From Thermoplasmata archaeon (GTDB lineage Archaea > Thermoplasmatota > DTKX01 > JAHFTX01), in the NCBI GenBank assembly GCA_023265395.1, contig JAHFTX010000005.1:1-64000 (forward strand): 64,000 bases of DNA. The letters are read 5' to 3'. Below, piece by piece: positions 8,136 through 64,000 of this stretch; within the stretch, counting starts at the first letter, position 1, and every line of letters begins with the position of its first letter. The translations under genes were made by a program, and so were the position numbers. Below the pieces are notes generated by a model that saw nothing but the letters and a program-made list of their open reading frames with translations, searched no databases and had not been told where the DNA came from.

Positions 8136-11100
8136 ATGCTCCAGACCCGCCATCACTCGAAGGGCATCGGGGCGCGCCTTGCCCGGCTGGTCCTGCTGCT
8201 CGTCGCCGTGCTGACCCTGCCGGCGTGGGGGGGGATTCCCGTCGGCAGCCTCTCGCCCTCGATCACCATCAGCAGCCCGGAGGCCGACGACTTCTTCGAC
8301 ATCGACATCGCCCATGTCAGTGGCACCGCCAGTGCGCCCACCAACCAGTGGAGCCAGGGCAGCAAGCAGCAGTTCGACCAAGGGACCCACACTGGCACCT
8401 ATGCGACCACCGCTGGGGAGGTCATCGTCCATCCCGCCCCTGGGGCATGGACCCGGCAGAACGGCACGCAGCCGGTGCTCGACGTTGGCGCTGCAGCTAG
8501 CTTCGATGACGAGGGTGTGGCTTGGCCGTCGACGGTCGTCGAGGGCTTGACCACGATGATGTATTACAGCGGCTACGACGGGGTGCAGTTCCAGATCGGC
8601 CTGGCCAACTCGACCGATGGGATCACCTTTGCCCGACAGAACGGTGGCGCCCCTCTGATCCCCTTCGGCCCCAACGGGGACTTCGATAGCTTCCACGCCA
8701 AGGAACCGTGGGTGGTCAAGGACGGAGCGACCTGGCGCATGTGGTACACCGGCTGGGATGGACTCAAGGAGCGGATCGGCTACGCGACCTCCGCAGACGG
8801 GCTCAGCTGGGCAAAGCAGGGGATGGTCCTCGATGTCGGCGCCAACGGTGCCTTCGACGACTCGGGGGTCGGTTCGGCCTCGGTCGTCAAGGATGGCGGG
8901 ACCTGGGTGATGCTCTTCTCCGGCTTCGATGGGGTCTCGTGGCGGATCGCGCGGGCGACCTCGCCCGACGGCAGCACCTGGACCAAGCAGGGCGTCGTGC
9001 TCAACCTGGGGGAGCCCAACGGCTTTTCAGGTACTGCAGTCCGCGCGGGGCGTATCCTCGCCGAGGGGACACGCTCCATGGTGTTCTACACTGGCGTCAG
9101 TGGCGCTGGCAAGGCCGTCGGCTACGCCATCGGCGTGCCCGATGGTCCCTTCGAGCACCTGACGGGGACGACTGCCAGCTTCAGCGGGACCGCTTCGTCG
9201 TGGGACGAGGAAGGCGTCTGGGCCGGGACCATCGAACGTGACGCGACGTCCTATACGATGTACTACACCGGGTACGATGCCACCACGACGAGGATCGGGC
9301 TAGCCACCGCCCCCGTCACCGGCGGCAGTGGGACGTTGCTCAGCGCGGAGATCGATTTTGGAGGGCCGGTCGACTTCGGCACCATCGACTGGGTCGCTGC
9401 CACTCCCGGGGGCACGACCCTGACCGTCGACGTGCGCCACCGCGGCGGCACAGGGACCTGGACGACCTTCAGCGGCGTCAGCAAGGGTGGGTCGACGCCA
9501 GAGGCGACTAGCCGGTACCTGCAGTACCGCCTGACGTTGACGACGAGCGACCCGTCGCTGTCTCCAAGCCTGACCAACATCTCGCTGACCTACGTCGCCC
9601 CCCTGACCACGGTGGAAGTCACCTCGGACTTCTCGCTCTGGCGACTGGCGTCGGGCACCAGCGCCTGGTCGATCGACCTGCCACTGCCCGAAGGCGAGGT
9701 CACCATCGGGGCACGTGCCACCGACTCGACGGGTGACGTCAGTCCCATCCCCACGGTCGACATCAGCGTCGACAGCAAACCGCCCACGGGCAACGTCACC
9801 ATCGACCTCCCGGGGAACTTCAGCACCTCTCGCACCGTGCCGCTGAGCTTCAACGCCACCGACCTCTCGGGCGTCGAGTCGGTGCAGCTGGGGCTCACCC
9901 CCAACCTGCAGAACGAGAGCTGGCTGCCGTACGCAGCGTCGATGCCCTACACCTTCCCCGTCGGCGATGGGCCTGAGACCATCTACGCACGCTTCCGCGA
10001 CCCCTACGGGCATGTCGGCATCGTCTCCTCCGACAGCATCACGGTCGACACCTCGCCCCCGACCCTCAACGTCACCGTCGAGGGGACCCCCTCAACCGAT
10101 GGCCTGCTCACCTACGTCACCGCACGGCGGGTGATCCTCCACCTGCTCCTCGACGACACCTTGGGCGTCGATGCGATGCGCATCTCCACCAATGCCGACT
10201 TCAGCGGGGCGATCTGGGAGGAGCCCGTCGAGACGCGCAGCTTGATCCTTCCCGACAAGGAGGGCAAGGTCCGCCTCTACGTCGAGGCACGGGACATCTC
10301 GGGACTGAGTGTCCAGACCACGCTCGACATCGTCCTCGATACGGTGCCCCCAAAGGCGTCGTTGCTGATCAACTCCGGTGCCCTGACCGCGCTCAGCCGC
10401 TTCGTGACCCTCGCGGTCGAGGCGGAGGATAGCAACGGCATCGAGGGGATCCGCCTGAGCAACGCCTCCGACTACAGCGACGGGAGCTGGTTCGTCCCGA
10501 CGACCAACGTCCTCGAATGGCAGCTCAACGTCGACGAGGGCGTCACGCAGCTCTACCTGCAGGTGAAGGACCACGCCGGCCTGCTCGCCAACGACAGTGC
10601 CATCGTCGACATCGTGACCATCCCTCCCGAAGGGACGGTGGTGATCGAGCAGGGGGCGAACTACACCAACCGTCACAACCTCCGGGTGGCCTTCGCCGTC
10701 CCCGAGGACATCTCCGTCGACCAGATGCGCGTCGGGCTGCAGCCGGACCTCAGCGATGGCACCTTCGACCTCTTTGCCGACGACCTCGAGGTCGAGCTGC
10801 CTGCCAACCGCAGTGACGGGCCGGTGACGGTCTACGTCCAGTTCAAGGACTTCTTCGGGGGCTTGACCAACATCTTCTCTGACGATATCACCATCGACAC
10901 CACCGCGCCCAAGCTCGTGGTCAGCGCCCCCCGGAACTCGACGGTGTGGGACCAGGCCAAGCTCCCGATCAAGGGCACCGCCACCGACGAGCGCAGCGGG
11001 ATCGCCCTCGTCGAAGTCTCCCTCGACGGCGGTCGATATGTCAAGGCCGCCGGGACGGCGGACTGGGCATACACCCCCTCGGTGGACCCGTCCAAGAACC

Positions 11101-11285
11101 ACAACATCACGGTCCGGGTCACGGACGGTGCCGGCAACACCGCCACCGCGAATGTCATCATCTTCAAGCCCAAGCACGACAAGGAGACCCCGATGATCGA
11201 GCCTGTGGGGCTCGTTGCCGCGATCGTCGTGGCATTGGCCTTGACCAGCCTGCGGCACAAGGCGCTCAAGGGACGCAGGGAGTGA
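8136..11285 (+). CDS. Secreted multidomain protein: GH43-like beta-propeller repeats + Ig-like domains + C-terminal sorting-signal-like TM/basic tail
   Basis: Start ATG 8136 with GAGGAG upstream; signal peptide; repeats such as MMYYSGYDGVQFQIGLANSTDGITF and MWYTGWDGLKERIGYATSADGLSW; C-term ETPMIEPVGLVAAIVVALALTSLRHKALKGRRE. Confidence 0.75.
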   Translation: MLQTRHHSKGIGARLARLVLLLVAVLTLPAWGGIPVGSLSPSITISSPEADDFFDIDIAHVSGTASAPTNQWSQGSKQQFDQGTHTGTYATTAGEVIVHPAPGAWTRQNGTQPVLDVGAAASFDDEGVAWPSTVVEGLTTMMYYSGYDGVQFQIGLANSTDGITFARQNGGAPLIPFGPNGDFDSFHAKEPWVVKDGATWRMWYTGWDGLKERIGYATSADGLSWAKQGMVLDVGANGAFDDSGVGSASVVKDGGTWVMLFSGFDGVSWRIARATSPDGSTWTKQGVVLNLGEPNGFSGTAVRAGRILAEGTRSMVFYTGVSGAGKAVGYAIGVPDGPFEHLTGTTASFSGTASSWDEEGVWAGTIERDATSYTMYYTGYDATTTRIGLATAPVTGGSGTLLSAEIDFGGPVDFGTIDWVAATPGGTTLTVDVRHRGGTGTWTTFSGVSKGGSTPEATSRYLQYRLTLTTSDPSLSPSLTNISLTYVAPLTTVEVTSDFSLWRLASGTSAWSIDLPLPEGEVTIGARATDSTGDVSPIPTVDISVDSKPPTGNVTIDLPGNFSTSRTVPLSFNATDLSGVESVQLGLTPNLQNESWLPYAASMPYTFPVGDGPETIYARFRDPYGHVGIVSSDSITVDTSPPTLNVTVEGTPSTDGLLTYVTARRVILHLLLDDTLGVDAMRISTNADFSGAIWEEPVETRSLILPDKEGKVRLYVEARDISGLSVQTTLDIVLDTVPPKASLLINSGALTALSRFVTLAVEAEDSNGIEGIRLSNASDYSDGSWFVPTTNVLEWQLNVDEGVTQLYLQVKDHAGLLANDSAIVDIVTIPPEGTVVIEQGANYTNRHNLRVAFAVPEDISVDQMRVGLQPDLSDGTFDLFADDLEVELPANRSDGPVTVYVQFKDFFGGLTNIFSDDITIDTTAPKLVVSAPRNSTVWDQAKLPIKGTATDERSGIALVEVSLDGGRYVKAAGTADWAYTPSVDPSKNHNITVRVTDGAGNTATANVIIFKPKHDKETPMIEPVGLVAAIVVALALTSLRHKALKGRRE

Positions 11286-11290
11286 TCGCC

Positions 11291-11602
11291 ATGGATGACG
11301 ATGAGCCCGAGGGCGGTCCGAGCTACCTCTGCCCCGACTGCCGAACACCGGTAGGGCCCGACGAGGATGTCTGTGCCGACTGCGGATGCGAGTTCGAGAC
11401 GGGGGACTTCGAGTGCATGATCTGTGGCACCACGGTCGCCCCCGAGACTTCCAGCTGCCCCGCGTGCGGCACGGAGTTCATCGACCCTGCCCAAGCACTG
11501 CTGCGGGTGCCCCTGCGCACGCTGGGTGGGGCCCCGGAGGATCGCCGGGCGATGCGCAAGGCCTACTTCCATGGCGAGCTCAAGGACGACGCTGACGAGT
11601 AG
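11291..11602 (+). CDS. Small zinc-ribbon protein
   Basis: MDDDEPEGGPSYLCPDCRTPVGPDEDVCADCGCEFETGDFECMICGTTVAPETSSCPACGTEF; two CxxC...CxxC ribbons; starts 6 nt after the upstream stop. Confidence 0.75.
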   Translation: MDDDEPEGGPSYLCPDCRTPVGPDEDVCADCGCEFETGDFECMICGTTVAPETSSCPACGTEFIDPAQALLRVPLRTLGGAPEDRRAMRKAYFHGELKDDADE

Positions 11603-11721: not shown

Positions 11722-14370
11722 ATGCGGGGGAAAGTCATCGGCCGCACACGACTGCGCATCCCTGCTGCCCTGCTCCTGGGACTGGTCTGTCTCGCTGCCA
11801 GCGTGCCGCTGGCGGCGGGCGTCGAACCTGCGTCGCAACGCCATGGCACCTTCTCCGAGGGCGTGCGCGCGGCCGTGAGTTCCTCGGGGACCTTCGGCGA
11901 GGTCGTCGCCGTTGGCACGGCCAGCAAGCTGGTGCTGCAGGATGGGGTGGGCAGCGAGGTGTGGTCCCACCCGCTGACCACCCCGGCGGCGTTGCTGCGC
12001 GTCAGCGATAGCGGGAACGCCTTCGTGCTCTCGACCCTAGGCAACCAGATCCAGACGTTCCAGCGCCCATCGGGCACGCCGGTGTGGAGCTACCAGGCCA
12101 ATAGCACGGTCATCGATGTGCAGATCGATCCCACCGGCAACCACGTGGCAGCGATCATCGCCGCGCACACACTGCTGCTCTTCGACTTCACCGACGGCAC
12201 GCCGCAGGAGGTCGTAGGAATCGATGGTGCACCGACCGTCGCGACCTTCTCCCACGACGGTGGCTACATCGCGGTCGGCAACGACGAAGGGGTGACCAGC
12301 CTCTTCCGCACCGAGGATGGCGCCGCACTGTGGTCCAAGGAGCACAGCGGCGCGGTCAGCTCGGTCGCAGTCGACCAGAGCACGACCCATGTGCTGATCG
12401 GCACCTCCTTGGGCAAGGCGTTCCTCTATGAACGCACCGGGGCGACGGCCACGCTGTTGTGGCAGATGCAGCTGGGTGGGGGCAACGCCCGGGTGCTGCT
12501 CTCGGGAGACGGGACCACTGCCGTCGTCGGTAGCGACGGCGACTCCCTGCGGATCGTCGACGCTGCCACTGGGGGAATCCGCGCGACGGTCAGCGACGGA
12601 GCCAACACTCACACCCTCCAGGGGTCAGAGGGGCTGGCGCGCCTCTTGGTGCGCACGACAGACGGGAAGATGGTGCTGATCGATTCTCCGGCAGGGACCA
12701 CCCGATGGATCGCCGCCTCTGACCTCTACGCAGGGGGTTCCTTGCGCCTCGATGGCAGCCGTGTCGTCGGCTGGGGGGGGGAGCGACTCGATGTGTTCAC
12801 CGACGAGCCCAGCGACAGTGGGCCGGGGATCGAGCTGCCCAAGCCGCCGCACGTGACCCTGACCTCTGATGTGCTGCGGTTGACCGACAGCAGCGGCCGC
12901 CTGACCTGGAACTGGCAGCTGACCGGCCGCACCAGCGGCACCGTCCATCACCTGGTGGCGCAGTACACCTTGGTGTTCTCCGATGGGACGCACGTCGACG
13001 GGCCCCTCTGGCGCACCCCAGCCAATGAGTCCGGGCCCACCCTGAGCTTCCTCGGTACCGGCCCCGGCGGGGGGATGGACCTCTCCACCTTCCGTCTGAG
13101 CTACATCGGCTCCGAGTCCCGTCCGACCGCTCCGGCCCGCGACGCACGGGTGACCTCCTTCATCGTGACCGTCCGCGCCTCCCAAGGAGCGCAGGAGCTG
13201 GTCGTCGACACGCAGACGGATTCACAGATTGCAAAGGCCTTCCTCGTGGGCAGTGGCCCTCAGGACGACGATGAGGACACGCCGGCGACCCCGATCATCA
13301 GCCTCGCCTGGTGGCTGGGGCTGGGGACGCTCAACCTCGCGGTCTTGGTGATCATCGTCGTCGTCGGCGTCACCGTCAGCTTCAGCGCCGTGCGGCTGGT
13401 CCGTCAACGCAGGGAGTTGCGGGACCGCGGCGATTCACTCACGGCCCGTTCCCGGGTGCAAGAGAAGGTCCAGCAGAGCAGTGGCTCGCGTGCACTCGTC
13501 AGCGGCAGTGCCGTGCTCCCGGCCGTAGACCTGCCCAAGACCATCAGCATGCCCACAACGACGAGTACGACGACGCAGGCGACAGCTCCGGCGCAGTCGC
13601 GCAAGCGCCCGGAGGCCGCCACTCCCACGACGGCCTCGGTCCCCACCTCCGAGGAGCCCTCCGCCCGGATCGCCCCCGTGACACCCAAGGCGCGGATCGC
13701 CACGGCCGACGCCATCAAGGCCGCCAAGGCCGCCGGCTCCCTCGAGCGGATCGGGGATACCTCGGCGGAGGAGCCTGCACCGATCAAGGCCAGCCGCCTT
13801 GCGCCCGCAGTCGTGGCAGCCGCTCCTCAGAGCCAAGCGGTTTGGGGCAAGGGAACGGCACCGACGACATCGAAGAAGTCCGCAGCGGAGGAACCGTCGC
13901 AGCCGCCGGCGCCGCCGGTGGGGCAGATGTGGGATTCATTCGGTCCGCCGCAGCGGGTGATGGTGTTCGAGGTCACCAAGGTGCGCTACACCCGCAAGAT
14001 GGCGATGAGCGACTGGGGGACGCTCGGCCCCGAGGCCCGCGCATCCATCGAGGCGGCGACCCCGCAGGTCGCTGCACTCTGGCGCGAGGTCAACGCCCCG
14101 ACCCCCACGGAGGACGAGCAGACAGCACGCGACCCTCCCACCGATGAGGTGCCCGAGGGGCCCAAGCCTGCCTTCGCACCGATGCCCGCACCACCTGCCA
14201 CCCTCCAAGCCGCCGCACCAGCGGCTTCCGGTGCGCCCGCTCCTGAGGAGGGCCGCAAGGCCGTCGCCAAGCTGCGCTGCCCCTCCTGCAAGAGGATCTT
14301 CCCGATCTACAACAAGGAGAAGGGCGCACAGATCGACTGTCCGCACTGTTCCTACTCCGCGACCATCTGA
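11722..14370 (+). CDS. Membrane protein: secreted WD40/PQQ-like beta-propeller + TM + disordered linker + cytosolic zinc ribbon
   Basis: Signal peptide RIPAALLLGLVCLAASVPLAAG; propeller-like repeats; TM LNLAVLVIIVVVGVTVSFSAV; C-term LRCPSCKRIFPIYNKEKGAQIDCPHCSYSATI. Confidence 0.8.
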   Translation: MRGKVIGRTRLRIPAALLLGLVCLAASVPLAAGVEPASQRHGTFSEGVRAAVSSSGTFGEVVAVGTASKLVLQDGVGSEVWSHPLTTPAALLRVSDSGNAFVLSTLGNQIQTFQRPSGTPVWSYQANSTVIDVQIDPTGNHVAAIIAAHTLLLFDFTDGTPQEVVGIDGAPTVATFSHDGGYIAVGNDEGVTSLFRTEDGAALWSKEHSGAVSSVAVDQSTTHVLIGTSLGKAFLYERTGATATLLWQMQLGGGNARVLLSGDGTTAVVGSDGDSLRIVDAATGGIRATVSDGANTHTLQGSEGLARLLVRTTDGKMVLIDSPAGTTRWIAASDLYAGGSLRLDGSRVVGWGGERLDVFTDEPSDSGPGIELPKPPHVTLTSDVLRLTDSSGRLTWNWQLTGRTSGTVHHLVAQYTLVFSDGTHVDGPLWRTPANESGPTLSFLGTGPGGGMDLSTFRLSYIGSESRPTAPARDARVTSFIVTVRASQGAQELVVDTQTDSQIAKAFLVGSGPQDDDEDTPATPIISLAWWLGLGTLNLAVLVIIVVVGVTVSFSAVRLVRQRRELRDRGDSLTARSRVQEKVQQSSGSRALVSGSAVLPAVDLPKTISMPTTTSTTTQATAPAQSRKRPEAATPTTASVPTSEEPSARIAPVTPKARIATADAIKAAKAAGSLERIGDTSAEEPAPIKASRLAPAVVAAAPQSQAVWGKGTAPTTSKKSAAEEPSQPPAPPVGQMWDSFGPPQRVMVFEVTKVRYTRKMAMSDWGTLGPEARASIEAATPQVAALWREVNAPTPTEDEQTARDPPTDEVPEGPKPAFAPMPAPPATLQAAAPAASGAPAPEEGRKAVAKLRCPSCKRIFPIYNKEKGAQIDCPHCSYSATI

Positions 14371-47587: not shown

Positions 47588-50500
47588 ATGCTTGGGGGGC
47601 ACCCGCGGCGGAGCCGCACCCTGGCGATTCTGCCACTGGTGGCGACGCTCCTGTTGCTGGGCGGGACCCCGCTGGTCGCGTGGGCAGCCAGCGCCACATC
47701 CTCAGTGGCGGAGGGCAGCGCGGCGCAGGGTCGCGCCGGGTTCATCCTTGGCCCCTGCCGCTACAGCGGCATCGGCGACTGGCTGATCGACTGCCGCGTC
47801 ATCTACAGCGCGAGCACCCTCGAGGTCAATGGGGACATCACCCTGATTCCGGGCGGCGAGCTGGTCCTGACCAACGGCACGTCCCTCATCCAGCAGGACC
47901 CCGCCAACAACCGTCGGCTGTTGATGCAGAGTGGTTCTCGCGTGGAGGTCGCCACCGGTGCGACGCTGCAGGTCGGCGACTTCCTGACCGAGCCCAATCA
48001 TTTGATCATCGTCAGCGAGGGGGGACGGATTCGTTCTGGCGGACAGGTGGAACTCCTGACAGGCGACCTGACGATGACCAACAGCACATGGGAGAACTAC
48101 GCTGCGACCGGGGGTGCGGGGCTTCCCGGGGAGGTGGCCACGTTCCTGGTGAACGAATCGACGGCGGCATTCCATGGTGTGACGCTCCGCTCCTATGGCG
48201 GCAAGGGCGGGCGCGACAGTCCCGAGACCTTCGGCGCCCCTGGAGGCAGCTCGACCGTCGCCGTCAATGCCGGAGCAATCGGGGCATCGGTGCTTGACTT
48301 CCGCGGTGGCGACGGCGGCGACGGCCCCAACGGCGGCGCCGCCAAGTCCGCCTTCGGCGGCGGCACGGGCGGGCAGGCCAACGCCAGCCTCTCGACAGGC
48401 AGCCTCAGCGGTGGGAGCCTCACCGTCGTCGGCGGCCGTGGCGGCCGTGGCGGCGCCGGGGGACCTGGAGGGACCAGCAATGGAGGCAGCGGCGGACCCG
48501 GCGGCGACGGTGGTGCAGCGCTGCTCAACATGGGCGATGCCCAAGGCGAGGCGGCGATCGACGAAGGGGAACGCCTGGCTATTGGCGGCGGCGATGCCGG
48601 TGACGGGGGTGCTGGAGGGAGCTCCGACGCCGCCAACGGCGGCAACGGCGGCAACGGCGGTCGTGGCGGTCGCTCGTTCATCGAGGTGCGGTGCAGCAAT
48701 TTCGCCCTCGGTCAAGGAGGCGACGTGCGCGCCTCCGCCGGTGACGGTGGCAAGGGTGGCCAATGGGGTGCGCTCAACCCCGGCGCCCCCTCGGGCAAGG
48801 ACGGTTCCCCCGGCGCTGGCGGCACCGGCGGCGATGTCGAGGTGTGGCTCGCGTGCAGTGCCGAGGTCGACGTCGATCAGGGAAACGTCACGGCCTACGC
48901 GGGCCAGGGCGGCAAGGGCGGCGTCGGCGAGAGCGTCGGCGGCGATGGAGGCAATGGTGGGAGCGCGACGCTTCAGGTCAACGCGAGCTCCTCGATCGCG
49001 TTCCGCGGGAGTGCGACTCTGCACTGCAGTCTGGGTGCACGCGGCGGCGATGGTGGCAACGGCGCCCCCGTCAACGGCGCAGGCAAGAGCGGCAACGGCG
49101 GGGTCGGAGGAGTGAGCAACATCTTCCTTCACACCTGGGACCGCTCCCCCACCGACACCATCGTCGGGGACTACTGCAACCTGGTCTCCGAGCCGCCCTT
49201 GGGCGGGGTGAGCGAGACCTTCCCCAACGCCCCTTTCACCCGTGGCAGCTCCGGTGCCCCAGGCTCGAGCCGTCTGGTCTTCGACACCCAGCAGACCACC
49301 CTCTCCCACTCCATCACCGGGACCCTGCTGGAGGGGTTCGACGGCACCGACCACGGGACGCTACGGGAGGTCGAGGTCCACAACGCTGACCGCGCCGCGG
49401 TCATCGACCCGATTCCCGGCGGCCCGCCGGTGCAGGCGCAGGTGGAGGTCTACTACACCCTGTGCGTGCGTGCCCGACCTGGGGACGTCGGGCCCCCGCC
49501 GGCATCGGCGACGGTCAAGGTCTTCGTCGGGGCCGACGACCCCGCTCCCTTGAGCCGACCCATCGGCGGGCCGTCGTTCCAGACCTGCTTTGCCGATGTG
49601 CTGGCCCAGGTCATCACGGTCACCACCAGCGACATCCGTGAGATCACCGTCACCGCTGAGTACCCCGATGGTGCATTGGCCAAGTCGCAGAAGCTGGTGG
49701 TCACCCGCAGCCTGACCTGCGGACCTCCGGTGACCAAGGACAACTGCATCCAGCTGGTCGCGACGGGCAACCGCGCCGCTCCTTCGGTCACCATCGACAA
49801 CCCGATCGCCACCGAGGTGATCAAGTCCGAGAACCTCGCCGGCGGCATCTACTACACCTCGGGCGAGGCCCGCGCTGATGAGGACCGTGAGGGGGACATC
49901 GGCGAGGTAGTCATCCGCATCCGCAGCGACCCCGAGACCGGCAGCGGGGAGATCAAGGCGGAGTTCCGTTGGGTCAAGGAGGGTGGCGCCTGGCGCCTGA
50001 TGGGCTCGGTGTTGCCTGGCCAAAGCCCCGCGTCGATCGGGCCGCAGCGGATCCGTTGGGAGGTCCCCTGGAACATCGGGGCCTTCGACAACCAGACCAA
50101 GGCCTACCTCTACCCCACGGGGATCTACCTGCTCTCGGCGCGCACCTTCGACGGCACGTTCTGGTCCGACGACCTCGGCCGCGGCGGGGTGCTCTTCTCC
50201 GACATCACCGTGACCATCCAGCAGCCGCCCATCCCCGTCGAGCCGCCGCTCCTCGACCCGACCTACAAGTTCGACCCCTCCTGCACGATCCTCGTGCGTA
50301 CCGACGGTTGCACCGTCATCTTCGAGGCCCCGCCCATCGTCAGCGTACCCGCGGGCATCAGCGTGCTCCGCATGGAGTGGGATTTCAACAACGACGGCAA
50401 AGCCGATCGCAGCTACATCCCTGGTACGGCCAGCGGCCAGGTGCCGGACACCCCTGCCAACGTCGAGGTGGTCTTCCAGGAGCCAGGACTCAAGCAGGCG

Positions 50501-52609
50501 CGGTACACCGTCTATCCTGACCTGGGGCGCGCCATCATCAAGAACATCCGCATCACTGTCGCCAAGGAGCCCCTGCCGCCGGTACAGCAGGACCTGTTCC
50601 CGATCTATGCCGGCGTGGCGGTCATCATCGGCGCCTTCGGTGCCGTGGTGATGCTCAACAACCTGCAGTACCGCCGCAGGGTCCTCGACCGAATCGAGGA
50701 GCTGCGGACGGTCAGCCGTGTCGAGATCGAAGGGATCTTCTGCCCCCGCTGCAACTTCGAGCTACCTGCAGCGGGGGCCGCCTGCATCCGTTGTGCCGCT
50801 ACCGATGCGGTCGGCGATGTACGAGCGGTCATCAGCAAGATCCGCACCCGCGGTGTCAACCTCGTCGACGCCGAGGGGGTCCTCAACGATGCCGTGGACT
50901 TGCTCGAGCAGGGCTCCTTCATCGAGGCCATCGCCAAGGCAGAGGACGCCCGGAAGAATACCCAGGTCATCTCCCAGGACTTCGTCAACGTCGAAGCGCT
51001 CGTCAAGGTCCACGAGAAACGACTCCAAGACCTCAAGGACGAGTTCGGGCGGCGTGTCGAGCTGCCCGAGTCGCCTGCCGACCGTGAGCTCTACCAGGCC
51101 AAGCTGGCCCTGGGCCGGGGCGATTTCCCGACGGTCTTCTCGCACCTGACGAACGTCGAAGGGACCTACGAGCTGTCTCGCGACCAGTGGCGGCTGTTCA
51201 TGGTCGATGACAAGATCCTGACCGTCGACCGGATGATCGCCAACGTCCGCTCCCGTGGAATCAAGGTCGGAGAGGCGGAGGACCTCGTTGCCAAGGCCCG
51301 CGCCGCCTACACCAGCGGGGAGAAGGCCCAGTCCCTGCAGACCATCGAGGAGGCCGAGCGGGCGATCCGCGAGATCAACAAGACCTTCATCAACGCCTCG
51401 GAGAAGCTCCAGAACGCCGAGGGGAGGTACGCCGATGGCATCGCCAAGGGCACCATCGAGGGGATGCAAACGGAGGGGCAGGCCGCAGCGGAGCGCGCTG
51501 GTGGGCTGCTCGAGCAGCTGCGCCAGGCCTTCCGGGACGGCCTCTATCCCAACGTCCTGGAGATCTATCGCGAACTCGACAAGGTCCTGCCCAAGACCAA
51601 GCGCAAGGCCAAGGACCTCGACTGGCCCGACCAGGCCGAGCGGCTGACCGAGCAGGTGGCCGCCTACGCCGCCAAGGAGCAGGCGGAGGCGCAGGCCAAG
51701 CCGACCTTCTCCTTTGCGTCGAGCAGCGAGACCCCCGAACCGCCGACGGTACTGGAGGCGCGCGCGCAGATCGCTCGAGCCCTCGAGCTCGTCGCCCAGG
51801 CCCAGGCGGCAGGGTTGGACGTCACCGACCCTGTGACGATGGTCTCGACCGCGCAAGACCGTGCCCAAGTGGGTCAGACCTCCGAGGCCAAGGACCTGGC
51901 CACCAACGCGGCCTTCCTGATCGGGGAACTCCTGCGGGCCCTGGGAATCTCCATCGACGAGGCTCGGGTCGCCGCGGCGATGGCCACCGCCGGGGGCTCG
52001 ATGGGTGCGGCGGAGTACGCTACCGAACACCCGCAGGCTGCGACGGCTCCGGGGCCATCACACGGCGCTGGGGGCGACAGCCTCGAAGCTGCCCTTGCGG
52101 CCGCACAGGCAGCCTCCCTGGCGGAGGGCCAGACCCCTACCCCAACGGCCGCTTCCGCCGCTGCAGCGACGACCGCGCAGGCGATGCAGGCCGAGAGCAA
52201 GTCCTCCTGCCCTGGCTGCAGCAAGCCCATCAAGGCACGCTGGAAGACCTGCCCCTACTGCGGCATCGACCTCGCCAGCCCAGGGCCTGCACCCGCCGGA
52301 CCGGCACCGGCGGAGCAGGTGCAGACCTACTCTGACCCCAACGAGGTGGTGACGACGCAGGAGTACGCTTCCGGTCAAGCGGACTCGGCCCCCGGGTATG
52401 GGCCAGAGAGAGCGACCTCGCAGGCCTATGCGCCCGTGTCGACCGAGCAGAGCCTTGAGTATCAGCCGCAAGTCCAGGAACTGCGGGCCGAGAGCCCCGC
52501 AGTGCACCCCTCCCCTGCCCCCGAGGAGGCCGCGAGCACGTGCAGTTCGTGCGGCAAGAACCGCAAGTCCCGGTGGAAGAGCTGCCCCTACTGCGGCCAG
52601 GTGTTCTAG
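47588..52609 (+). CDS. Giant (1673 aa) membrane protein: Gly-rich beta-helix-like ectodomain + TM + ~650-aa cytosolic helical region with three zinc ribbons
   Basis: Signal TLAILPLVATLLLLGGTPLVAWA; GGDGGDGPNGG/GGRGGRGGAGGPGG region; TM YAGVAVIIGAFGAVVML; IFCPRCNFELPAAGAACIRCAA, SCPGCSKPIKARWKTCPYCGIDL, TCSSCGKNRKSRWKSCPYCGQVF. Confidence 0.85.
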   Translation: MLGGHPRRSRTLAILPLVATLLLLGGTPLVAWAASATSSVAEGSAAQGRAGFILGPCRYSGIGDWLIDCRVIYSASTLEVNGDITLIPGGELVLTNGTSLIQQDPANNRRLLMQSGSRVEVATGATLQVGDFLTEPNHLIIVSEGGRIRSGGQVELLTGDLTMTNSTWENYAATGGAGLPGEVATFLVNESTAAFHGVTLRSYGGKGGRDSPETFGAPGGSSTVAVNAGAIGASVLDFRGGDGGDGPNGGAAKSAFGGGTGGQANASLSTGSLSGGSLTVVGGRGGRGGAGGPGGTSNGGSGGPGGDGGAALLNMGDAQGEAAIDEGERLAIGGGDAGDGGAGGSSDAANGGNGGNGGRGGRSFIEVRCSNFALGQGGDVRASAGDGGKGGQWGALNPGAPSGKDGSPGAGGTGGDVEVWLACSAEVDVDQGNVTAYAGQGGKGGVGESVGGDGGNGGSATLQVNASSSIAFRGSATLHCSLGARGGDGGNGAPVNGAGKSGNGGVGGVSNIFLHTWDRSPTDTIVGDYCNLVSEPPLGGVSETFPNAPFTRGSSGAPGSSRLVFDTQQTTLSHSITGTLLEGFDGTDHGTLREVEVHNADRAAVIDPIPGGPPVQAQVEVYYTLCVRARPGDVGPPPASATVKVFVGADDPAPLSRPIGGPSFQTCFADVLAQVITVTTSDIREITVTAEYPDGALAKSQKLVVTRSLTCGPPVTKDNCIQLVATGNRAAPSVTIDNPIATEVIKSENLAGGIYYTSGEARADEDREGDIGEVVIRIRSDPETGSGEIKAEFRWVKEGGAWRLMGSVLPGQSPASIGPQRIRWEVPWNIGAFDNQTKAYLYPTGIYLLSARTFDGTFWSDDLGRGGVLFSDITVTIQQPPIPVEPPLLDPTYKFDPSCTILVRTDGCTVIFEAPPIVSVPAGISVLRMEWDFNNDGKADRSYIPGTASGQVPDTPANVEVVFQEPGLKQARYTVYPDLGRAIIKNIRITVAKEPLPPVQQDLFPIYAGVAVIIGAFGAVVMLNNLQYRRRVLDRIEELRTVSRVEIEGIFCPRCNFELPAAGAACIRCAATDAVGDVRAVISKIRTRGVNLVDAEGVLNDAVDLLEQGSFIEAIAKAEDARKNTQVISQDFVNVEALVKVHEKRLQDLKDEFGRRVELPESPADRELYQAKLALGRGDFPTVFSHLTNVEGTYELSRDQWRLFMVDDKILTVDRMIANVRSRGIKVGEAEDLVAKARAAYTSGEKAQSLQTIEEAERAIREINKTFINASEKLQNAEGRYADGIAKGTIEGMQTEGQAAAERAGGLLEQLRQAFRDGLYPNVLEIYRELDKVLPKTKRKAKDLDWPDQAERLTEQVAAYAAKEQAEAQAKPTFSFASSSETPEPPTVLEARAQIARALELVAQAQAAGLDVTDPVTMVSTAQDRAQVGQTSEAKDLATNAAFLIGELLRALGISIDEARVAAAMATAGGSMGAAEYATEHPQAATAPGPSHGAGGDSLEAALAAAQAASLAEGQTPTPTAASAAAATTAQAMQAESKSSCPGCSKPIKARWKTCPYCGIDLASPGPAPAGPAPAEQVQTYSDPNEVVTTQEYASGQADSAPGYGPERATSQAYAPVSTEQSLEYQPQVQELRAESPAVHPSPAPEEAASTCSSCGKNRKSRWKSCPYCGQVF

Positions 52610-52742
52610 GGCGCCGGAGGGGCGTTCGAGGACCCCCCACAACCTTTAACCTCCGACGACCGGCACTCGGGTGCACCTGTGCGGGCGAGGAGTGGGTGGC
52701 TGGGCCTCCCCTCACCGACCTGTCCACGGGGTGGTGGTCAAC

Positions 52743-55688
52743 ATGGCCCGCGGTGCCCAAGGTCTGCTGTCGTTGCTGTCTGTCCTGCTGCTGCTGAGTG
52801 CCCCGGTGATGGCGCTGGCGCAACCGAGCGCCCCGGCAAGCGATTCCCCGTTCACTCCTGATGGATCCAGCGCTGGTGAGCACCTGACGCAGCCGTATGC
52901 CCTGGAGCCGCGACCGGTCACCCCGTCGAGCTCCCGCGCCGCGCCTGACTACCCCGACGGCTTCGTCGAATTCGAGATGGGCGGCGTCTCCGAGTACCAC
53001 ATGATCATCCCGCGCGACACCGACCTCGAACGTGCTGAAGTGACCCTGCGTGCCTCGGCGGTGCAGGCACCCGTGCCGCTGACCTACTATTACAACTACA
53101 GCATCGTTGGCAGCTCCAACGCCTGGTCGGGCCAAGGCAGCTCCTCGGCGACCGGTCCGCCCGAGAACTACGAGAGCAGCCCCTTCATCCCTGGCGACTT
53201 CACCCAGATCGCCACCGACGATGGCGTCGCCAAGAGCACCCAGATCACGGGAAGCCAGAATCCGTATCACCACTTCGCCGTCTCGCTGCAGAAGTTCCCC
53301 ATCACCCAGCTGACGATCAGCTGGAAGGGACGCGCCTCGACGGTCGAGAGCCCCAGTTCAGCCACCGCCACCATCTACGTCTACAACGGCGTCACGGAGG
53401 AGTGGGAGTCCATCGGGAGTAATTCGGCCTCCACCTACACCCGCATCGACTTCACCACGTCGGAGGACGCCGACGACTACCTCGCGCCGGACGGATACAT
53501 GCACATCCTGGCGCTGGGGGAACGCTCCCAACAGCAGTGGGGCTCGATCTGGGCGACCATCTACACCGATTGGCTGGAGGTCAAGGCGGTGACCAGCTGG
53601 TGGTATACGTTCAACCCCTCCCTCGACATCGGCGGCAACGGCGGCACCCCCGACTGGCTCTACTTCGGCGTGTTCCGCACCGAGCAGACCCTCGACGAGC
53701 CCGACTTCAAGAACCGCATCCAGGAGGCGATCGATGTCGCCACCGCTGCGGCCAGTCCCGACCAGTACAACATCGATGTGGTGTTCAAGTTCAGCAGCCT
53801 CACCAAGGGGAAGATCGAGCTGGTCAACTGGGTGCTCAAGAAGGAGTCACCCCCCTACATATTCCTCCCCGATGAGACCTTCACCATCCTCGAGGACATC
53901 GACACCCCCAAGCTGATCGACTTGTGGGACTTCACCTCCGATGACGGCGAAGTCGCCGCGATGATCTACTCTGTCGCCAAACAGGAGGACAGCTCCAGAC
54001 TGAGCGTCCGCATCAACGCCGATGGCCACCACCTCGACGTCGAGACCCCCACCAACGACTGGTCCGGCAGCGCCTGGTTCCAGATCCAAGGCAGTGATGA
54101 CACCCTCAAGACCTCCACGAGCAACAAGTTCCACATCGGCGTCACACCCGTCAACGACCGGCCGAAGCTGATCAACCCCGGGCTGCTGGTCGCCGACGAG
54201 GGGGTGCCCTTCACCTACGTGCTCCGTGCCACCGACCCCGACGGTGATGACCTGATCATCAGCACCAACACGGACCTGTTCAGCCTCCAGCCCGTCCCCG
54301 GCACCCCCAACTCGGCGTTGATCGCCTTCACCCCCACCAACGAGCAGGTCGGGGAACACCCGCTGAGCATCGTCATCACCGACCCATCGGGATGGGCGGA
54401 CAACCGCATCGTCGTCCTCAACGTCAGGGACCTCAACATCGACCCGACGCTCGATACCATCGACGACATCGTCGCCACAGAGGACAAGCCCTTCGAGCTC
54501 CAGCTGATGGCCGAGGACGAGGACCTGCCCAACGGTGACGTGTTGCGATTCGCCGATGACAGTCCCTTCTTCGACGTCAGCCGCGACGGTAAGATCTACT
54601 TCATCCCCACCAACGAGATGGTCGGCACCTCGCAAGTGACCTTCTCGGTCGCCGACGCCCGTGGGGGCTATGCCGAGCAGACCGTCTCTGTGACCGTGAT
54701 CAACGTCAACGACCCACCGGTCATCCCCGACATCCCCGCCCAGATCGCCCTTGAGGACGAACCCTTCGAGCTGCGGGTCGACGCCTTCGACCCTGACTTT
54801 GGGGACCAGCTGCAGTTCAGCGATGACTCGGAGATGTTCGACATCAACACGCGCACCGGGAAGATCACCTTCAACCCGACGCAGGAGAACGTCGGGACCC
54901 ACAAGATCGCGATCACCGTCAAGGACAAGCACCAGTCCCCCGACCGGGCGACCTTCACCCTCGAAGTCATCAACGTCAACGACCCACCGGCCAACGCCAC
55001 CATCACCATCAACCCCCCCGATGGCAAGATCGTCCAGGGTGACAAGATCATCCTCGAGGGGACGGCCACCGATTCCGACAAGGACGAATTGGAGTACTCC
55101 TGGGAGGACAGCAACGGCATCAACCTCGGGACGGGCCGCTCCTTCGTCTCCTCAGACCTGCCTCCGGGGAGCCATGACCTGATCTTGGTGGTCAAGGACG
55201 AAGCGGGGCTGACCACCACAGCGACGGTGACGATCAAGGTCGAGTCGGCCAACACCGGTCCTGCAGGGACCACCACCGTCGGCGGCGTCCCCTACTTCGT
55301 GCTGCTGGCCATCGTCGCCACCGCCGTCGTCGCTGGCGGGCTGGTGGTGTGGCACCGCACCAAGCCTCTGGCCGAGGAGCTGGCCGAGGCCGACACCATC
55401 GAGATGCCGCTGCCGCCACCCGGGAGCGTGCCTGGGCCTGCCGTCGGCCTGCCGCCGCCAGTCGCGGGCAGCGGATACCTTGGCGCGGCCGAGGACTCCT
55501 ATGCGCTCCCGCCCCCGGGCGGAGCACCGCAGATGCTCCCAGCGAGCACCGATGTCAGCTTCGACGCCAACGGCACTGCTGTTGGCGCTGGACCGCCTTG
55601 CCCCCACTGCGGCGCTGCCGGCATGATGCCCCTAGGATCGAGCAACGCATGGGTCTGCCCCGCCTGCGGCAACACCCAGTCGATGTAG
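52743..55688 (+). CDS. Surface protein: cadherin-like/Ig-like repeats + TM + cytosolic zinc ribbon
   Basis: Signal LLSLLSVLLLLSAPVMALAQ; repeats ending VTVINVNDPPVIPDIP and LEVINVNDPPANATI; TM YFVLLAIVATAVVAGGLVVW; C-term PPCPHCGAAGMMPLGSSNAWVCPACGNTQSM. Confidence 0.85.
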   Translation: MARGAQGLLSLLSVLLLLSAPVMALAQPSAPASDSPFTPDGSSAGEHLTQPYALEPRPVTPSSSRAAPDYPDGFVEFEMGGVSEYHMIIPRDTDLERAEVTLRASAVQAPVPLTYYYNYSIVGSSNAWSGQGSSSATGPPENYESSPFIPGDFTQIATDDGVAKSTQITGSQNPYHHFAVSLQKFPITQLTISWKGRASTVESPSSATATIYVYNGVTEEWESIGSNSASTYTRIDFTTSEDADDYLAPDGYMHILALGERSQQQWGSIWATIYTDWLEVKAVTSWWYTFNPSLDIGGNGGTPDWLYFGVFRTEQTLDEPDFKNRIQEAIDVATAAASPDQYNIDVVFKFSSLTKGKIELVNWVLKKESPPYIFLPDETFTILEDIDTPKLIDLWDFTSDDGEVAAMIYSVAKQEDSSRLSVRINADGHHLDVETPTNDWSGSAWFQIQGSDDTLKTSTSNKFHIGVTPVNDRPKLINPGLLVADEGVPFTYVLRATDPDGDDLIISTNTDLFSLQPVPGTPNSALIAFTPTNEQVGEHPLSIVITDPSGWADNRIVVLNVRDLNIDPTLDTIDDIVATEDKPFELQLMAEDEDLPNGDVLRFADDSPFFDVSRDGKIYFIPTNEMVGTSQVTFSVADARGGYAEQTVSVTVINVNDPPVIPDIPAQIALEDEPFELRVDAFDPDFGDQLQFSDDSEMFDINTRTGKITFNPTQENVGTHKIAITVKDKHQSPDRATFTLEVINVNDPPANATITINPPDGKIVQGDKIILEGTATDSDKDELEYSWEDSNGINLGTGRSFVSSDLPPGSHDLILVVKDEAGLTTTATVTIKVESANTGPAGTTTVGGVPYFVLLAIVATAVVAGGLVVWHRTKPLAEELAEADTIEMPLPPPGSVPGPAVGLPPPVAGSGYLGAAEDSYALPPPGGAPQMLPASTDVSFDANGTAVGAGPPCPHCGAAGMMPLGSSNAWVCPACGNTQSM

Positions 55689-60118: not shown

Positions 60119-63100
60119 CTACTCCTGCGCCTGGGCGTCCATCTCCTCGAAGGACTCGCCGATCTTCCCAAGGTAGGTGTCGACCTTCTCCTGCTGACCC
60201 TTGCGGGCGAAGAAGGTCGCCATGCGCAGGTAGTTGCGGACCTTCTTGACGTCCCAGCCGGCTGCCTCGTAGGCGTCGGCCTTGGCGCCAAGGGCGTCGA
60301 GGTCCGATTGCAGCGTCGGGTCCAGGGGCGGCTCGGCCGCACTCGTCGGTGCTGCGACGACCTGCTGGCCTGCCATCGCCGCGGCGTAGGTGGGATCGGA
60401 CATCGTCGGCGGCAGCGCCATGAGCATCGGCACCCCGCCTTGGGCGGCAAGGCCCCCGCCCAAGGGCGCCAATGCGCCCACACCGGGGGCACCTGGCAGG
60501 GTGAGCGGCACGGCAGGTCCGCTGGCGCCATAGGTCGGACCCATCGTCGGGACCGACGAGAGCACCACGGGCGGGCGGTTGCGGGCGCGCTTGAGCTTGA
60601 CCTCGGCGGCACGCACCCGGCGCGACGCGTGGCCGTAGGCGACGGCCATGCCCGCAGCGACCACGAGCAGCAGCAAGACCCCATAGAGGTCCTGCAGCGA
60701 GGTGACGACGCGGTTGGCCGACTCCTGGGCTCCATCGACGAAGCTGGTCGTCGCCTCGCGTCGCTCGACCTCCGCCGAGGTGCTGGCCTCGTTGCCCACC
60801 GTGTCGGTGGCGGAGACCTCGATGCGGTTGTCCCCGAGCGCCAGTGGCACCTCGGCCGAGAAGCGTCCCAGTGCGTCGACGTCGGCGCGCTGGTCGGCGA
60901 CGGTGACCGTGGCGCCGGGCTCGGCGCGGCCCTTGATCGTCACGTGCTCCTTCTTGGTGGTCGGTTCGGTGTGGTCGAGACTCAGCTGCATGACGCTGTC
61001 GCGCACCACCGAGGTGGTCAGCGAGCGCACGTTGCCAGCGGGGTCACGGGCGCTGAGGGTGAGCAGGTTCTCACCTTCGAGGAGTGCGACGGAGGTGGTG
61101 AACTCCCCGTCAGCGAAGATCACCTTGCCGTTGACCTGCAACGTCGCGCCCGGTTCGGAGGAGCCCATCAGCTCCACCGAGGAGGCGGAGGTGACGTAGC
61201 CAGGCGCGGGGGAGGTGACCTCGAGCCTTGGCGCGAGCGTGTCGAGGGTCACCGAGGTGGTGCGGCTGAAGGGGTTGCCGTTCTCGTCGTAGGCGGTGAC
61301 CGTGATCACGTTGAGCCCCTCCTTGAGACCGACCTGCGTGCGGTAGCTCCCCACGCCGGGGTTGTAGGAGGTGACCTCGAGGCCGTTGATCACCAGCGAG
61401 CGCGCATCGGTGGTGCCCGCGACGCTGATGCGGCGGTCCCCGGTGAGCGTGTCGGGGGCGGGCGAGTCGATCGTCAGGGCCGGTGCGGTCAGGTCGACGA
61501 GCACCGACAACGTCAGGTCGGCCTCGTTACCGGCGAGGTCGACGGCGTGGATCTGGACCTGGTTCTCCCCCTCGGTGAGCCCCTGGACCGTCCCGACGAA
61601 GGAGGTCCCGATGACCTCCACCGCCTGCCCGTTGAGGGTCACGACGCTGTTGCGGTCGACGCGGCCCTGCACCTCGAGCGAGGTGCTGCCGCTGACGGAG
61701 CCCGGGCTGGGGGTGAAGACCACGATCTCCGGAGGAGTGAAGTCCCCCGTGATGGAGAAGTAGACGGAGTTGCTGTTGCCCGCCAGGTCGGTGGAGACGA
61801 AGGTGAAGGCGTTGACACCTTCGCCGACGGGGGTGGAGTAGGTGAAACTCCCGTCGGGCTTGACGGCCACGAGGGCGCCGTTGGCCTTGAGGGTCGTCCC
61901 GGGTTCGGCGGTGCCGCTGATGTCGAGGGTCGAGGTCCCGATGATCGCCCCATCGACGGGGGAGGTGACCGCCAAGGTTGGCGGGGTGATGTCCTTGAAC
62001 ACCTCGACGGTGCGGGAGTCGGAGTTCCCGAAGCTGTCGGCGACAACCAAGGGGATGGCATTGAGGCCGTCACTGCCCAAGGGCAACGTGATCTCGAACT
62101 GCCCGAAGCGGTCGACCTGGGTCGAGAACCCGCCGATGCTGAGGACCGCCCCGACATCGGTCTGGCCCCGGACAAGCACCTCGTTGCCGTTGGTGACCAT
62201 CCCGTCGACCGGGCTGGTGATCAGCAGCGGCGGGGCGACATCGTCGAGGGTGATGACCACCTGGTCATCGCTCTCGAGGACGAGGTCCCCGCTGCCCGTG
62301 CGGGCGCCGTCGGTGAGGGAGACCGTGTAGGGCGCGTAGATGTGGTCCCCTGAGGCGTCGGCATGGCGCTGGCGCAGGGTATAGTCGAGGAGCCAGCCGT
62401 CGCTGCCGGTGTTGGACGTAGCGATGGTCTGCCCGCCACTGGCGTCGGTGAAGACGATCGCGGCGTCCTGCACGGGGGAACCGTCACTCTCGTAGACGCC
62501 TTGGACGGAGGCGAGGTAGGAGTTCTCGAAGTACCCGTTGTGGTTGGCGGTGATCTTGCCGATGACGTTGCTGTTGGAGGTGATGGCGATGTCGTAGATG
62601 TAGAGGTCGGTCTGGCTGTTGCCGGTGATGACGTTGTCATTCATGTCGATGGGTATGGTGCCGGCACCGAGGTAGATGTAGAGGTAGATCCCGTAGCCCT
62701 CGTTGTTGACGATGGTGTTGCTGTTGAAGGACATCGTGTTGGGCGAGGGGTAGTAGATCATCGGCCCGCCGCCCCAGTTGCCATTGCCATTGTCGAAGAG
62801 CGTATTGCCCTCGAAGCGCAGGGAGAACAGGCTCCCCGAACCCATGTACCAGTAGAGGGTCTGGTACCCGCTGTTGATCATCAGGTTGTCCTCGAAGAGG
62901 AAGGTGTTGGCGAGGTTGGCGGGGTAGCCATAGGCATAGAAGTAGACGGTGTAGTAGTAGCCGTTGAAGAGGTTGCTCGTGATCCGCAGCGTCGTCGCCC
63001 CGGACCAGGAGTTGATGTTGGGTTGGCCCGAGCAGAAGGCGAAGGAACAGGAGTAGGAGTAGAGGTATATCGCGTAGGCGTAGTTGGTCGACGATGTGAA

Positions 63101-63562
63101 GACGTTGTTGTGCAGGTCGAGCGTCTCGGTGGTCATCTGCAAGCGGTAGAACTGTTGCAGGTCGCTGTCGTAGATCTTGAGGTTCGAACCGGAGTTTGCG
63201 TTGATCATCCAGTACCAGTTGGCGTTGCTCGTCTTGTAGGACGCATTGGCGATGATCAGTTGGCCGCCGTCATTGACGGTGATCGTGCGGCTGTTGCTGG
63301 TGTACGTCACCGCCGTGTTGTGGATGTTGACGTAGCCACCGCTGTTGATGACCAGGTCGCCGCCGACGCTATAGGTGAGGGCCGGGTAGTTGCAGACATC
63401 GCCGGCAGAGACCGTGCCGGTGGGGGTGGCAGGGCATGCAGCATCGGCGGACTGAGCGAGCAGCAGGAGCAGGAACATGCCCCCCAGGGCGCCCAGGACG
63501 ATCAAGGTGTTCCGGCTCAGCAGTAGACGGAGCATCGGGCTCCGCTCATGGGTGACGTCCAT
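60119..63562 (-). CDS. Surface protein: Tyr-rich parallel beta-helix + ~8 Ig-like (PPxxxxxSPxDG) domains + TM + helical cytosolic tail
   Basis: Signal NTLIVLGALGGMFLLLLLAQSADA; YAYAIYLYSYSCSFAF, YYYTVYFYAYGYPANLANTFLFEDNLM; repeated PPTLAVTSPVDGAIIGTSTLDISGTAEPG; TM LYGVLLLLVVAAGMAVAYG. Start 63562 (alternatives 63583, 63535). Confidence 0.82.
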   Translation of the reverse strand: MDVTHERSPMLRLLLSRNTLIVLGALGGMFLLLLLAQSADAACPATPTGTVSAGDVCNYPALTYSVGGDLVINSGGYVNIHNTAVTYTSNSRTITVNDGGQLIIANASYKTSNANWYWMINANSGSNLKIYDSDLQQFYRLQMTTETLDLHNNVFTSSTNYAYAIYLYSYSCSFAFCSGQPNINSWSGATTLRITSNLFNGYYYTVYFYAYGYPANLANTFLFEDNLMINSGYQTLYWYMGSGSLFSLRFEGNTLFDNGNGNWGGGPMIYYPSPNTMSFNSNTIVNNEGYGIYLYIYLGAGTIPIDMNDNVITGNSQTDLYIYDIAITSNSNVIGKITANHNGYFENSYLASVQGVYESDGSPVQDAAIVFTDASGGQTIATSNTGSDGWLLDYTLRQRHADASGDHIYAPYTVSLTDGARTGSGDLVLESDDQVVITLDDVAPPLLITSPVDGMVTNGNEVLVRGQTDVGAVLSIGGFSTQVDRFGQFEITLPLGSDGLNAIPLVVADSFGNSDSRTVEVFKDITPPTLAVTSPVDGAIIGTSTLDISGTAEPGTTLKANGALVAVKPDGSFTYSTPVGEGVNAFTFVSTDLAGNSNSVYFSITGDFTPPEIVVFTPSPGSVSGSTSLEVQGRVDRNSVVTLNGQAVEVIGTSFVGTVQGLTEGENQVQIHAVDLAGNEADLTLSVLVDLTAPALTIDSPAPDTLTGDRRISVAGTTDARSLVINGLEVTSYNPGVGSYRTQVGLKEGLNVITVTAYDENGNPFSRTTSVTLDTLAPRLEVTSPAPGYVTSASSVELMGSSEPGATLQVNGKVIFADGEFTTSVALLEGENLLTLSARDPAGNVRSLTTSVVRDSVMQLSLDHTEPTTKKEHVTIKGRAEPGATVTVADQRADVDALGRFSAEVPLALGDNRIEVSATDTVGNEASTSAEVERREATTSFVDGAQESANRVVTSLQDLYGVLLLLVVAAGMAVAYGHASRRVRAAEVKLKRARNRPPVVLSSVPTMGPTYGASGPAVPLTLPGAPGVGALAPLGGGLAAQGGVPMLMALPPTMSDPTYAAAMAGQQVVAAPTSAAEPPLDPTLQSDLDALGAKADAYEAAGWDVKKVRNYLRMATFFARKGQQEKVDTYLGKIGESFEEMDAQAQE
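60128..60444. repeat. Copy 1 of direct repeat (316/317 identical to 63684..64000)
   Basis: Offset 3556 bp; single visible mismatch gatctt/gacctt. Confidence 0.95.
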
Positions 63563-63573
63563 GTGCAGCACCG

Positions 63574-63586
63574 ACCGTGTCACGGT
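63574..63586. promoter_or_regulatory. Perfect palindrome ACCGTGTCACGGT between TATA (cttatata, minus) and start of beta-helix gene
   Basis: Read directly; same ACCGT-N3-ACGGT as 799-811. Confidence 0.6.
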
Positions 63587-63671: not shown

Positions 63672-64000
63672 TTACTGACCGCCCGCCTGGGCGTCCATCT
63701 CCTCGAAGGACTCGCCGACCTTCCCAAGGTAGGTGTCGACCTTCTCCTGCTGACCCTTGCGGGCGAAGAAGGTCGCCATGCGCAGGTAGTTGCGGACCTT
63801 CTTGACGTCCCAGCCGGCTGCCTCGTAGGCGTCGGCCTTGGCGCCAAGGGCGTCGAGGTCCGATTGCAGCGTCGGGTCCAGGGGCGGCTCGGCCGCACTC
63901 GTCGGTGCTGCGACGACCTGCTGGCCTGCCATCGCCGCGGCGTAGGTGGGATCGGACATCGTCGGCGGCAGCGCCATGAGCATCGGCACCCCGCCTTGGG
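63672..64000 (-). CDS. C-terminal part of a second paralogue of the 60119-63562 protein (truncated at right edge)
   Basis: GGVPMLMALPPTMSDPTYAAAMAGQQVVAAPTSAAEPPLDPTLQSDLDALGAKADAYEAAGWDVKKVRNYLRMATFFARKGQQEKVDTYLGKVGESFEEMDAQAGGQ*. Confidence 0.85.
   Translation of the reverse strand, partial: QGGVPMLMALPPTMSDPTYAAAMAGQQVVAAPTSAAEPPLDPTLQSDLDALGAKADAYEAAGWDVKKVRNYLRMATFFARKGQQEKVDTYLGKVGESFEEMDAQAGGQ
63684..64000. repeat. Copy 2 of direct repeat (continues past window edge)
   Basis: See 60128..60444. Confidence 0.95.

Follow-up and report, generated by a model that had tools for sequence, protein, structure and literature searches.

Archaeal surface proteins are mostly regarded as passive lattice components, adhesins or enzymes. 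In eukaryotes, transmembrane RING E3 ligases of the ZNRF3/RNF43, RNF13 and GRAIL class consist of a signal peptide, an ectodomain, one transmembrane (TM) helix and a cytosolic RING, and, apart from the possible case considered here, membrane-anchored RING ligases are discussed as eukaryotic. Archaeal ubiquitin operons with small soluble RINGs are already known, as in the ubiquitylation operon of Candidatus Caldiarchaeum subterraneum, which contains genes for Ubl, E1-like, E2-like and RING-type proteins and a JAMM/Rpn11-type protease (PMC5654768, PMC6043591). Bacterial membrane proteins that carry zinc ribbons have also been described, among them Bacillus YdjG and the ZnR-PspC proteins of the Psp network, which work with a partner combining band-7 and zinc-ribbon domains (PMC11237479, PMC9239133).

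Here, we analyze a window of 64,000 nucleotides, that is, the whole stretch presented above (contig C66:1-64000), from the 2.78-Mb, 89%-complete genome of a Thermoplasmata archaeon (G000), in which large surface proteins carry zinc ribbons in their cytosolic tails, together with HR, our name for a three-helix TPR-like repeat of ~55 amino acids (aa). The ubiquitin-like gene set of this genome and its relatives resembles that of Ca. Caldiarchaeum subterraneum in having a putative Ubl precursor with residues past Gly-Gly and E1, E2, RING-type and protease genes together or nearby. Unlike the small soluble RING of that organism, however, the RING-like domains here end an HR scaffold of ~3200 aa and several huge single-pass surface proteins. 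The layout of the latter equals that of the eukaryotic transmembrane RING E3s, and control of surface proteins is proposed for both, but the ectodomains contain NHL, Ig and CARDB domains rather than a PA domain, the RING-like domains show C4HC3 spacing and remain below Pfam cut-offs, and the proteins of the window carry ribbons and no RINGs. In YdjG and ZnR-PspC, the ribbons precede the TM part and the context is that of PspA, and the available portions of those reports mention neither HR repeats nor a giant ectodomain. The Pfam families DZR and Zn_ribbon_3, whose cut-offs are exceeded by the W-ribbons of protein A, are silent on topology and on association with HR. We found no description of the combination of these features in searches of open-access papers, which also turned up no named system with the architecture at issue, as an earlier sequence-only reading of this DNA had supposed.

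Genes and TM segments were called with our own scripts, and the comparison genomes are draft assemblies. Among the genomes searched, four besides that of the window belong to the same class (G001 to G004); the stretches of G002 and G004 were picked because they held matches. Tests of co-occurrence covered 60 genomes of the phylum, and relatedness was ignored in all statistics. The features of the window are listed in Table 1.

Table 1. Features of the window that are discussed in the text
Feature	Position	Strand	Remarks
Archaeosortase C-like protein	6704..7963	-	several TMs; ribbon at 6773-6832
Surface protein with near-absent tail	8136..11285	+	signal peptide, Ig-like ectodomain, TM, 11-aa tail
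Soluble protein with overlapping zinc ribbons (triple-ribbon)	11291..11602	+	103 aa; start 5 nt past the stop of 8136-11285
Surface protein C	11722..14370	+	882 aa: beta-propeller ectodomain, TM, 325-aa tail
Protein C TM helix			residue index 538; K/R within 15 aa: 0 before, 6 after
Protein C C-terminal ribbon, long-loop CPxC-x16-CPxC type	14278..14349	+	sole ribbon of the tail
Surface protein A	47588..52609	+	1673 aa: signal peptide, Gly-rich/beta ectodomain, TM, 651-aa cytosolic tail
Protein A TM helix	50597..50653	+	GES score 2.05; residue index 1003; K/R 1 before, 4 after
Protein A juxtamembrane ribbon CPRCNFELPAAGAACIRC	50741..50794	+	equivalent position occupied by a ribbon in L154, L180
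Protein A HR1, three-helix TPR-like repeat in tail	50795..50959	+	profile matches
Protein A HR2 in tail	51206..51370	+	profile matches
Protein A HR3 in tail	51755..51922	+	profile matches and AlphaFold2 model
Protein A W-ribbon CPGCSKPIKARWKTCPYC	52208..52261	+	whole protein above Zn_ribbon_3/DZR cut-offs; strict pattern
Protein A W-ribbon CSSCGKNRKSRWKSCPYC	52541..52594	+	4 aa before C-end of A
Surface protein B	52743..55688	+	981 aa: cadherin/PKD-like ectodomain, TM, 111-aa tail
Protein B TM helix	55296..55352	+	residue index 855; K/R 0 before, 2 after
Protein B C-terminal ribbon, not W-type	55599..55667	+	Pfam match below cut-off; single ribbon
Surface protein, HR without ribbon in cytosolic tail	60119..63583	-	HR at 60164-60301
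3' end of tandem paralogue, equal HR tail	63672..64000	-	gene 63672-67058 on C66; HR at 63711-63857

Translations and TM calls bear out the architecture originally described for proteins A, B and C, namely, a signal peptide, a beta-rich ectodomain, one TM helix and a ribbon-bearing tail: all three start with an N-terminal hydrophobic segment and contain one further strong TM segment. By the positive-inside rule, the distribution of lysine and arginine around the TM helices (Table 1) places the ribbons of all three inside the cell, and eight of the nine zinc tails evaluated overall are cytosolic by this criterion. Several further window proteins called as signal peptide plus one distal TM lack a ribbon.

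The ribbons themselves are of at least three types. Protein A contains three of them, one just inside the membrane (residue ~1052) and two close to the C-end, and exceeds the Pfam cut-offs for both Zn_ribbon_3 (36.7 bits; cut-off 27) and DZR (33.9 bits; cut-off 27.3). Proteins B and C and the archaeosortase reach only sub-threshold scores against Pfam ribbon models and carry ribbons other than the W-type, so the notion that one kind of module, or a single ribbon family, occurs on all four proteins was abandoned. Long-loop tails resembling that of protein C (pattern CPxC-x16-CPxC) were found on surface proteins encoded on contigs C25 and C39. Composition does not account for the ribbons: permutation of the tails of 38 surface proteins over 200 rounds yielded 0.045 CxxC...CxxC ribbons per round for the whole set (maximum 1) compared with nine observed, and the strict W-ribbon pattern, CPxC-x7-WxxCPxC, matched 11 times in the whole genome whereas the reversed control pattern did not match at all. 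W-ribbons mostly lie 4-8 aa before the C-end, the ribbons commonly come after low-complexity linkers, and a protein may contain up to six.

The recurrence of this architecture, also part of the sequence-only reading, is evident from the W-ribbon proteins of this genome, six of ten being surface proteins compared with 38 of 531 proteins (7%) in a 0.81-Mb sample of stretches from the same genome (p=2.2e-5). The six are protein A (47588-52609), C4:42832-46401, C23:25085-28333, C33:15852-18998, C46:44585-47854 and C46:3364-5106, the last counted with an uncertain N-terminus; the four counted as soluble are at C2:29723, C51:76137, C53:9925 and C35:29186. On contigs sampled purely for length, none of 16 surface proteins has a zinc tail and enrichment there is not significant, so that the recurrence is supported by the count of W-ribbon proteins over the whole genome; in the full, match-enriched sample, zinc tails are present on nine of 38 surface proteins. 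W-ribbons are not scattered randomly over the genome's proteins, but zinc tails are a minority feature. By extrapolation, they would occur on ~10% of the surface proteins (about 13 detected by profile and pattern searches, out of an estimated 130).

Among the relatives, the strict pattern has 3 matches in G001, 33 in G002, none in G003, which is 72% complete, and 24 in G004. By our count, surface proteins make up 14 of the 18 W-ribbon proteins examined in G002 and 10 of 16 in G004; the same architecture is found in G001 as well as in G041 and G030, which represent two other phylum families. Homologues of protein A in G002 (1826 aa) and G004 (1782 aa) align with it over the membrane-proximal region, the TM helix and the tail at 26-27% identity, and the Gly-rich ectodomain is not shared; judged from these alignments, the ectodomain of protein A varies on a conserved tail. 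Relatives of protein B in G002 are 39% identical to it across the ectodomain but have a W-ribbon at the C-end, so the zinc slot is kept while the ribbon type is swapped.

HR repeats are present in many surface-protein tails, including those of the tandem paralogues at the end of the window. The single-sequence AlphaFold2 model of HR3 of protein A (51725-51952) shows a three-helix bundle at high confidence (pLDDT 92.5, pTM 0.78). A fold search of the PDB with this model gave no significant match, the best geometry being that of 2pmr with a non-significant TM-score of 0.75, and assignment of HR to an already known fold was accordingly set aside. Individual HR units mostly match TPR models weakly; one HR protein of G004 passes TPR_2 and TPR_8.

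The HR/zinc kit is not confined to surface proteins. Soluble proteins with a beta-propeller followed by HR and a W-ribbon occur across several families within the phylum (C53 of this genome, L127, L128, L130, L151, L181, L188 and L195), and a gene encoding HR and a ribbon directly follows a surface gene in G002 (L176) and in G004 (L156). In the genome of the window, the surface protein C4:42832-46401 has an HR of this kind fused into its own tail, and this comparison of fused and split sequences suggests a joint function. The small triple-ribbon protein of the window and the nearly tailless surface protein encoded just upstream could likewise be split partners, the small protein being the detached tail. 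Each of the five genomes of the class encodes a giant soluble HR protein of ~3200 aa, although the contigs that carry it in G001 and G003 are truncated. Over the 60 genomes of the phylum, HR co-occurs with W-ribbons (17/13/2/28, p=5e-5, relatedness ignored).

These distributions bear on the proposal that the tails have a shared cytosolic partner. The HR/W-ribbon kit is found on unrelated ectodomains and on soluble proteins, as such a partner would lead one to expect; a single type of module common to all four proteins is not found. We tentatively favor a model in which the tails of protein A and its class-mates, built from a small interaction kit of HR repeats and a zinc module, would dock surface proteins onto a shared cytosolic HR/zinc scaffold. 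The zinc module, mostly near the extreme C-end, is of the W-ribbon or long-loop type, some proteins having a RING-like domain instead; what these proteins share is the tail, whereas their ectodomains differ. Candidate docking partners are cytosolic proteins of like kit: the propeller-HR-W-ribbon proteins, the HR/ribbon proteins whose genes adjoin surface genes, and the giant HR protein encoded beside E1. Physical docking is our inference; both the DZR-like W-ribbon and the TPR-like HR are short and generic, so that sharing need not imply a common partner. If the model is correct, it would provide a concrete, testable archaeal case of wiring between surface and cytosol, with a plug common to surface proteins and soluble scaffold proteins.

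The same ribbons might instead be autonomous folded caps, zinc knots that end long Pro/Ala-rich tails and guard against proteases and translocon slippage, with no shared partner. Such a role would fit ribbons that mostly lie within 4-8 aa of the C-end after low-complexity linkers, that change type between homologues and that many surface proteins do without. We consider it rather unlikely, however, since it leaves unexplained the HR repeats in the same tails, the juxtamembrane and multiple ribbons (up to six per protein), the module on soluble propeller and HR proteins, and the RING-like domains in the equivalent slot.

Through these RING-like domains and the giant HR protein, the kit overlaps with a ubiquitin-like gene set. 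In G004, one gene run comprises E1/ThiF, the giant HR gene with its RING-like end, Ubl, E2 and a JAB protease. The order giant-Ubl-E2-JAB recurs in G002, a short contig of G001 reads giant-E2-JAB, and this order was also read in G003 (L205-L210 for the four relatives). In the genome of the window, the set is split between C51 (2865-13833; E1, giant and RING) and C36 (83167-84625; Ubl, E2 and JAB). Here, the E1 gene overlaps the giant HR gene by 4 nt, the RING-like stretch forms a small ORF of its own just past the giant and has no Pfam match, and the gene for ribosomal protein L44e lies immediately downstream of JAB, which points to an archaeon. The giant HR gene adjoins E1 or E2 genes, and its product has a RING-like C4HC3 C-end in four of the five class genomes (G001-G004). 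In the genome of the window, E1 (ThiF), E2 (UQ_con) and JAB all exceed the Pfam cut-offs, as they do among the relatives' proteins scanned. The Ubl of G004 scores below the cut-offs for YukD (24.4 bits) and ubiquitin (18.2 bits); that of the genome under study has no significant Pfam match, resembles the G004 protein by eye, ends in ..PDPQGGAPLA and is encoded next to E2. In PADLOC, the ThiF-like E1 matches E1-E2 models, and E2 and JAB match no model. A second, shorter Ubl-E2-E1 cluster is present in G002 (C47) and G004 (C82).

RING-like tails were found on a 1271-aa surface protein of this genome with an NHL-repeat ectodomain (C6:40211-44026) and on surface proteins of the relatives (G002 C3:110156-112888, which adjoins the operon, and C20:31216-33753; G004 C46 and C72). 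The eight zinc ligands, which follow a RING-like order (C-x2-C, C-x-C-G, H-x2-C and C-x2-C), are invariant or nearly so in nine proteins. Against Pfam, the RING-like domains remain below gathering scores, with the best scores for zf-RING_2 (17.7 bits; threshold 27.3) and Prok-RING_1 (14.3 bits; threshold 29.1), and in a profile search of the PDB, the best matches are mostly eukaryotic RING E3s with marginal E-values (2e-4). E2 above cut-off is present in 23 of the 60 phylum genomes; 14 well-known control genomes yielded none. RING-like domains co-occur with E2 across the phylum (18/6/6/30, p=9e-6; 2e-4 with our class removed), in a test that ignores relatedness; HR shows no significant association with E2 over the same genomes (10/9/14/27, p=0.26).

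Part of the cytosolic scaffold of the docking model would then be a ubiquitin-like conjugation apparatus, which might mark, cluster or remove surface proteins, or mark targets once the outside is engaged. Such an apparatus is the most economical candidate because the RING-like giant shares a gene run with E1, Ubl, E2 and JAB in genomes of the same class and because some surface proteins have a RING-like domain in place of the ribbon. The full version, in which RING-like or ribbon/HR tails recruit E1, E2, Ubl and JAB via the ~3200-aa HR scaffold and so remodel the surface, seems to us unlikely as it stands. Conjugation activity and the control of surface proteins through ubiquitin-like marking are predicted, and ribbon-tailed proteins, as distinct from the RING-tailed ones, are putative clients. 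With their E1, E2, JAB and RING-like genes, partly in one gene run, these genomes may offer membrane-anchored RING ligases a setting in a prokaryote, and the full version, if true, would be a prokaryotic counterpart of the control that transmembrane RING E3s exert over receptors.

HR/ribbon tails could also anchor surface proteins to a submembrane lattice of giant HR and propeller-HR proteins that maintains cell shape or the envelope and is unrelated to conjugation. The conservation of the giant HR protein throughout the class and the co-occurrence of HR and W-ribbons without E2 in part of the phylum, where several genomes have both modules and no E2, are in line with this explanation. We nonetheless judge it improbable given that the giant adjoins E1 or E2 and has a RING-like end in four of five genomes, neither of which a pure lattice would need. 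Transmembrane signalling, the initial proposal, in which ectodomain sensing would be relayed via the TM helix to a zinc-ribbon-binding effector, accords with the variable ectodomain and conserved tail of protein A, with the cytosolic location of the tails and with the zinc-ribbon membrane proteins and band-7/zinc-ribbon protein of bacterial Psp networks (PMC11237479, PMC9239133), but it appears improbable too, as Pfam and NCBIfam scans detected no output domain, whether kinase, cyclase, HTH or another, in the cytosolic parts of proteins A-C or in the other proteins and neighbors examined, and the ectodomains resemble structural or adhesive domains (Ig, cadherin, PKD, beta-helix, propeller).

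The archaeosortase does end in a ribbon, as had been noticed, but it has several TMs, and its 40%-identical homologue in G002 of the same class lacks the ribbon, for which reason we dropped it as a member of the shared tail system. It scores 58.7 bits against TIGR03762, short of the cut-off of 100, and exceeds the cut-off of TIGR04178; a search of genome contigs returned a single distant proteobacterial match. The reversed build is seen in another surface protein of this genome (C57:31170-34235), in which the zinc ribbon is N-terminal, the single TM lies at residue 99 and ~900 aa follow. Three W-ribbon proteins from other genomes of the phylum (L129, L142, L166) look band-7/YdjI-like by eye alone; a Pfam scan of L129 matched nothing except the ribbons.

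Some tails appear to be in flux at the DNA level. The tandem paralogues 60119-63583 and C66:63672-67058 are 71% identical overall and near-identical in the DNA of their cytosolic tails, which suggests gene conversion of the tail. In G002, ~10 copies of a surface-protein 3' end comprising the TM, HR and W-ribbon (L170-L179, L184, L187), mostly with 87-96% DNA identity and mostly at contig ends, make up a gene family that was multiplied or converted recently and that interrupts the assembly.
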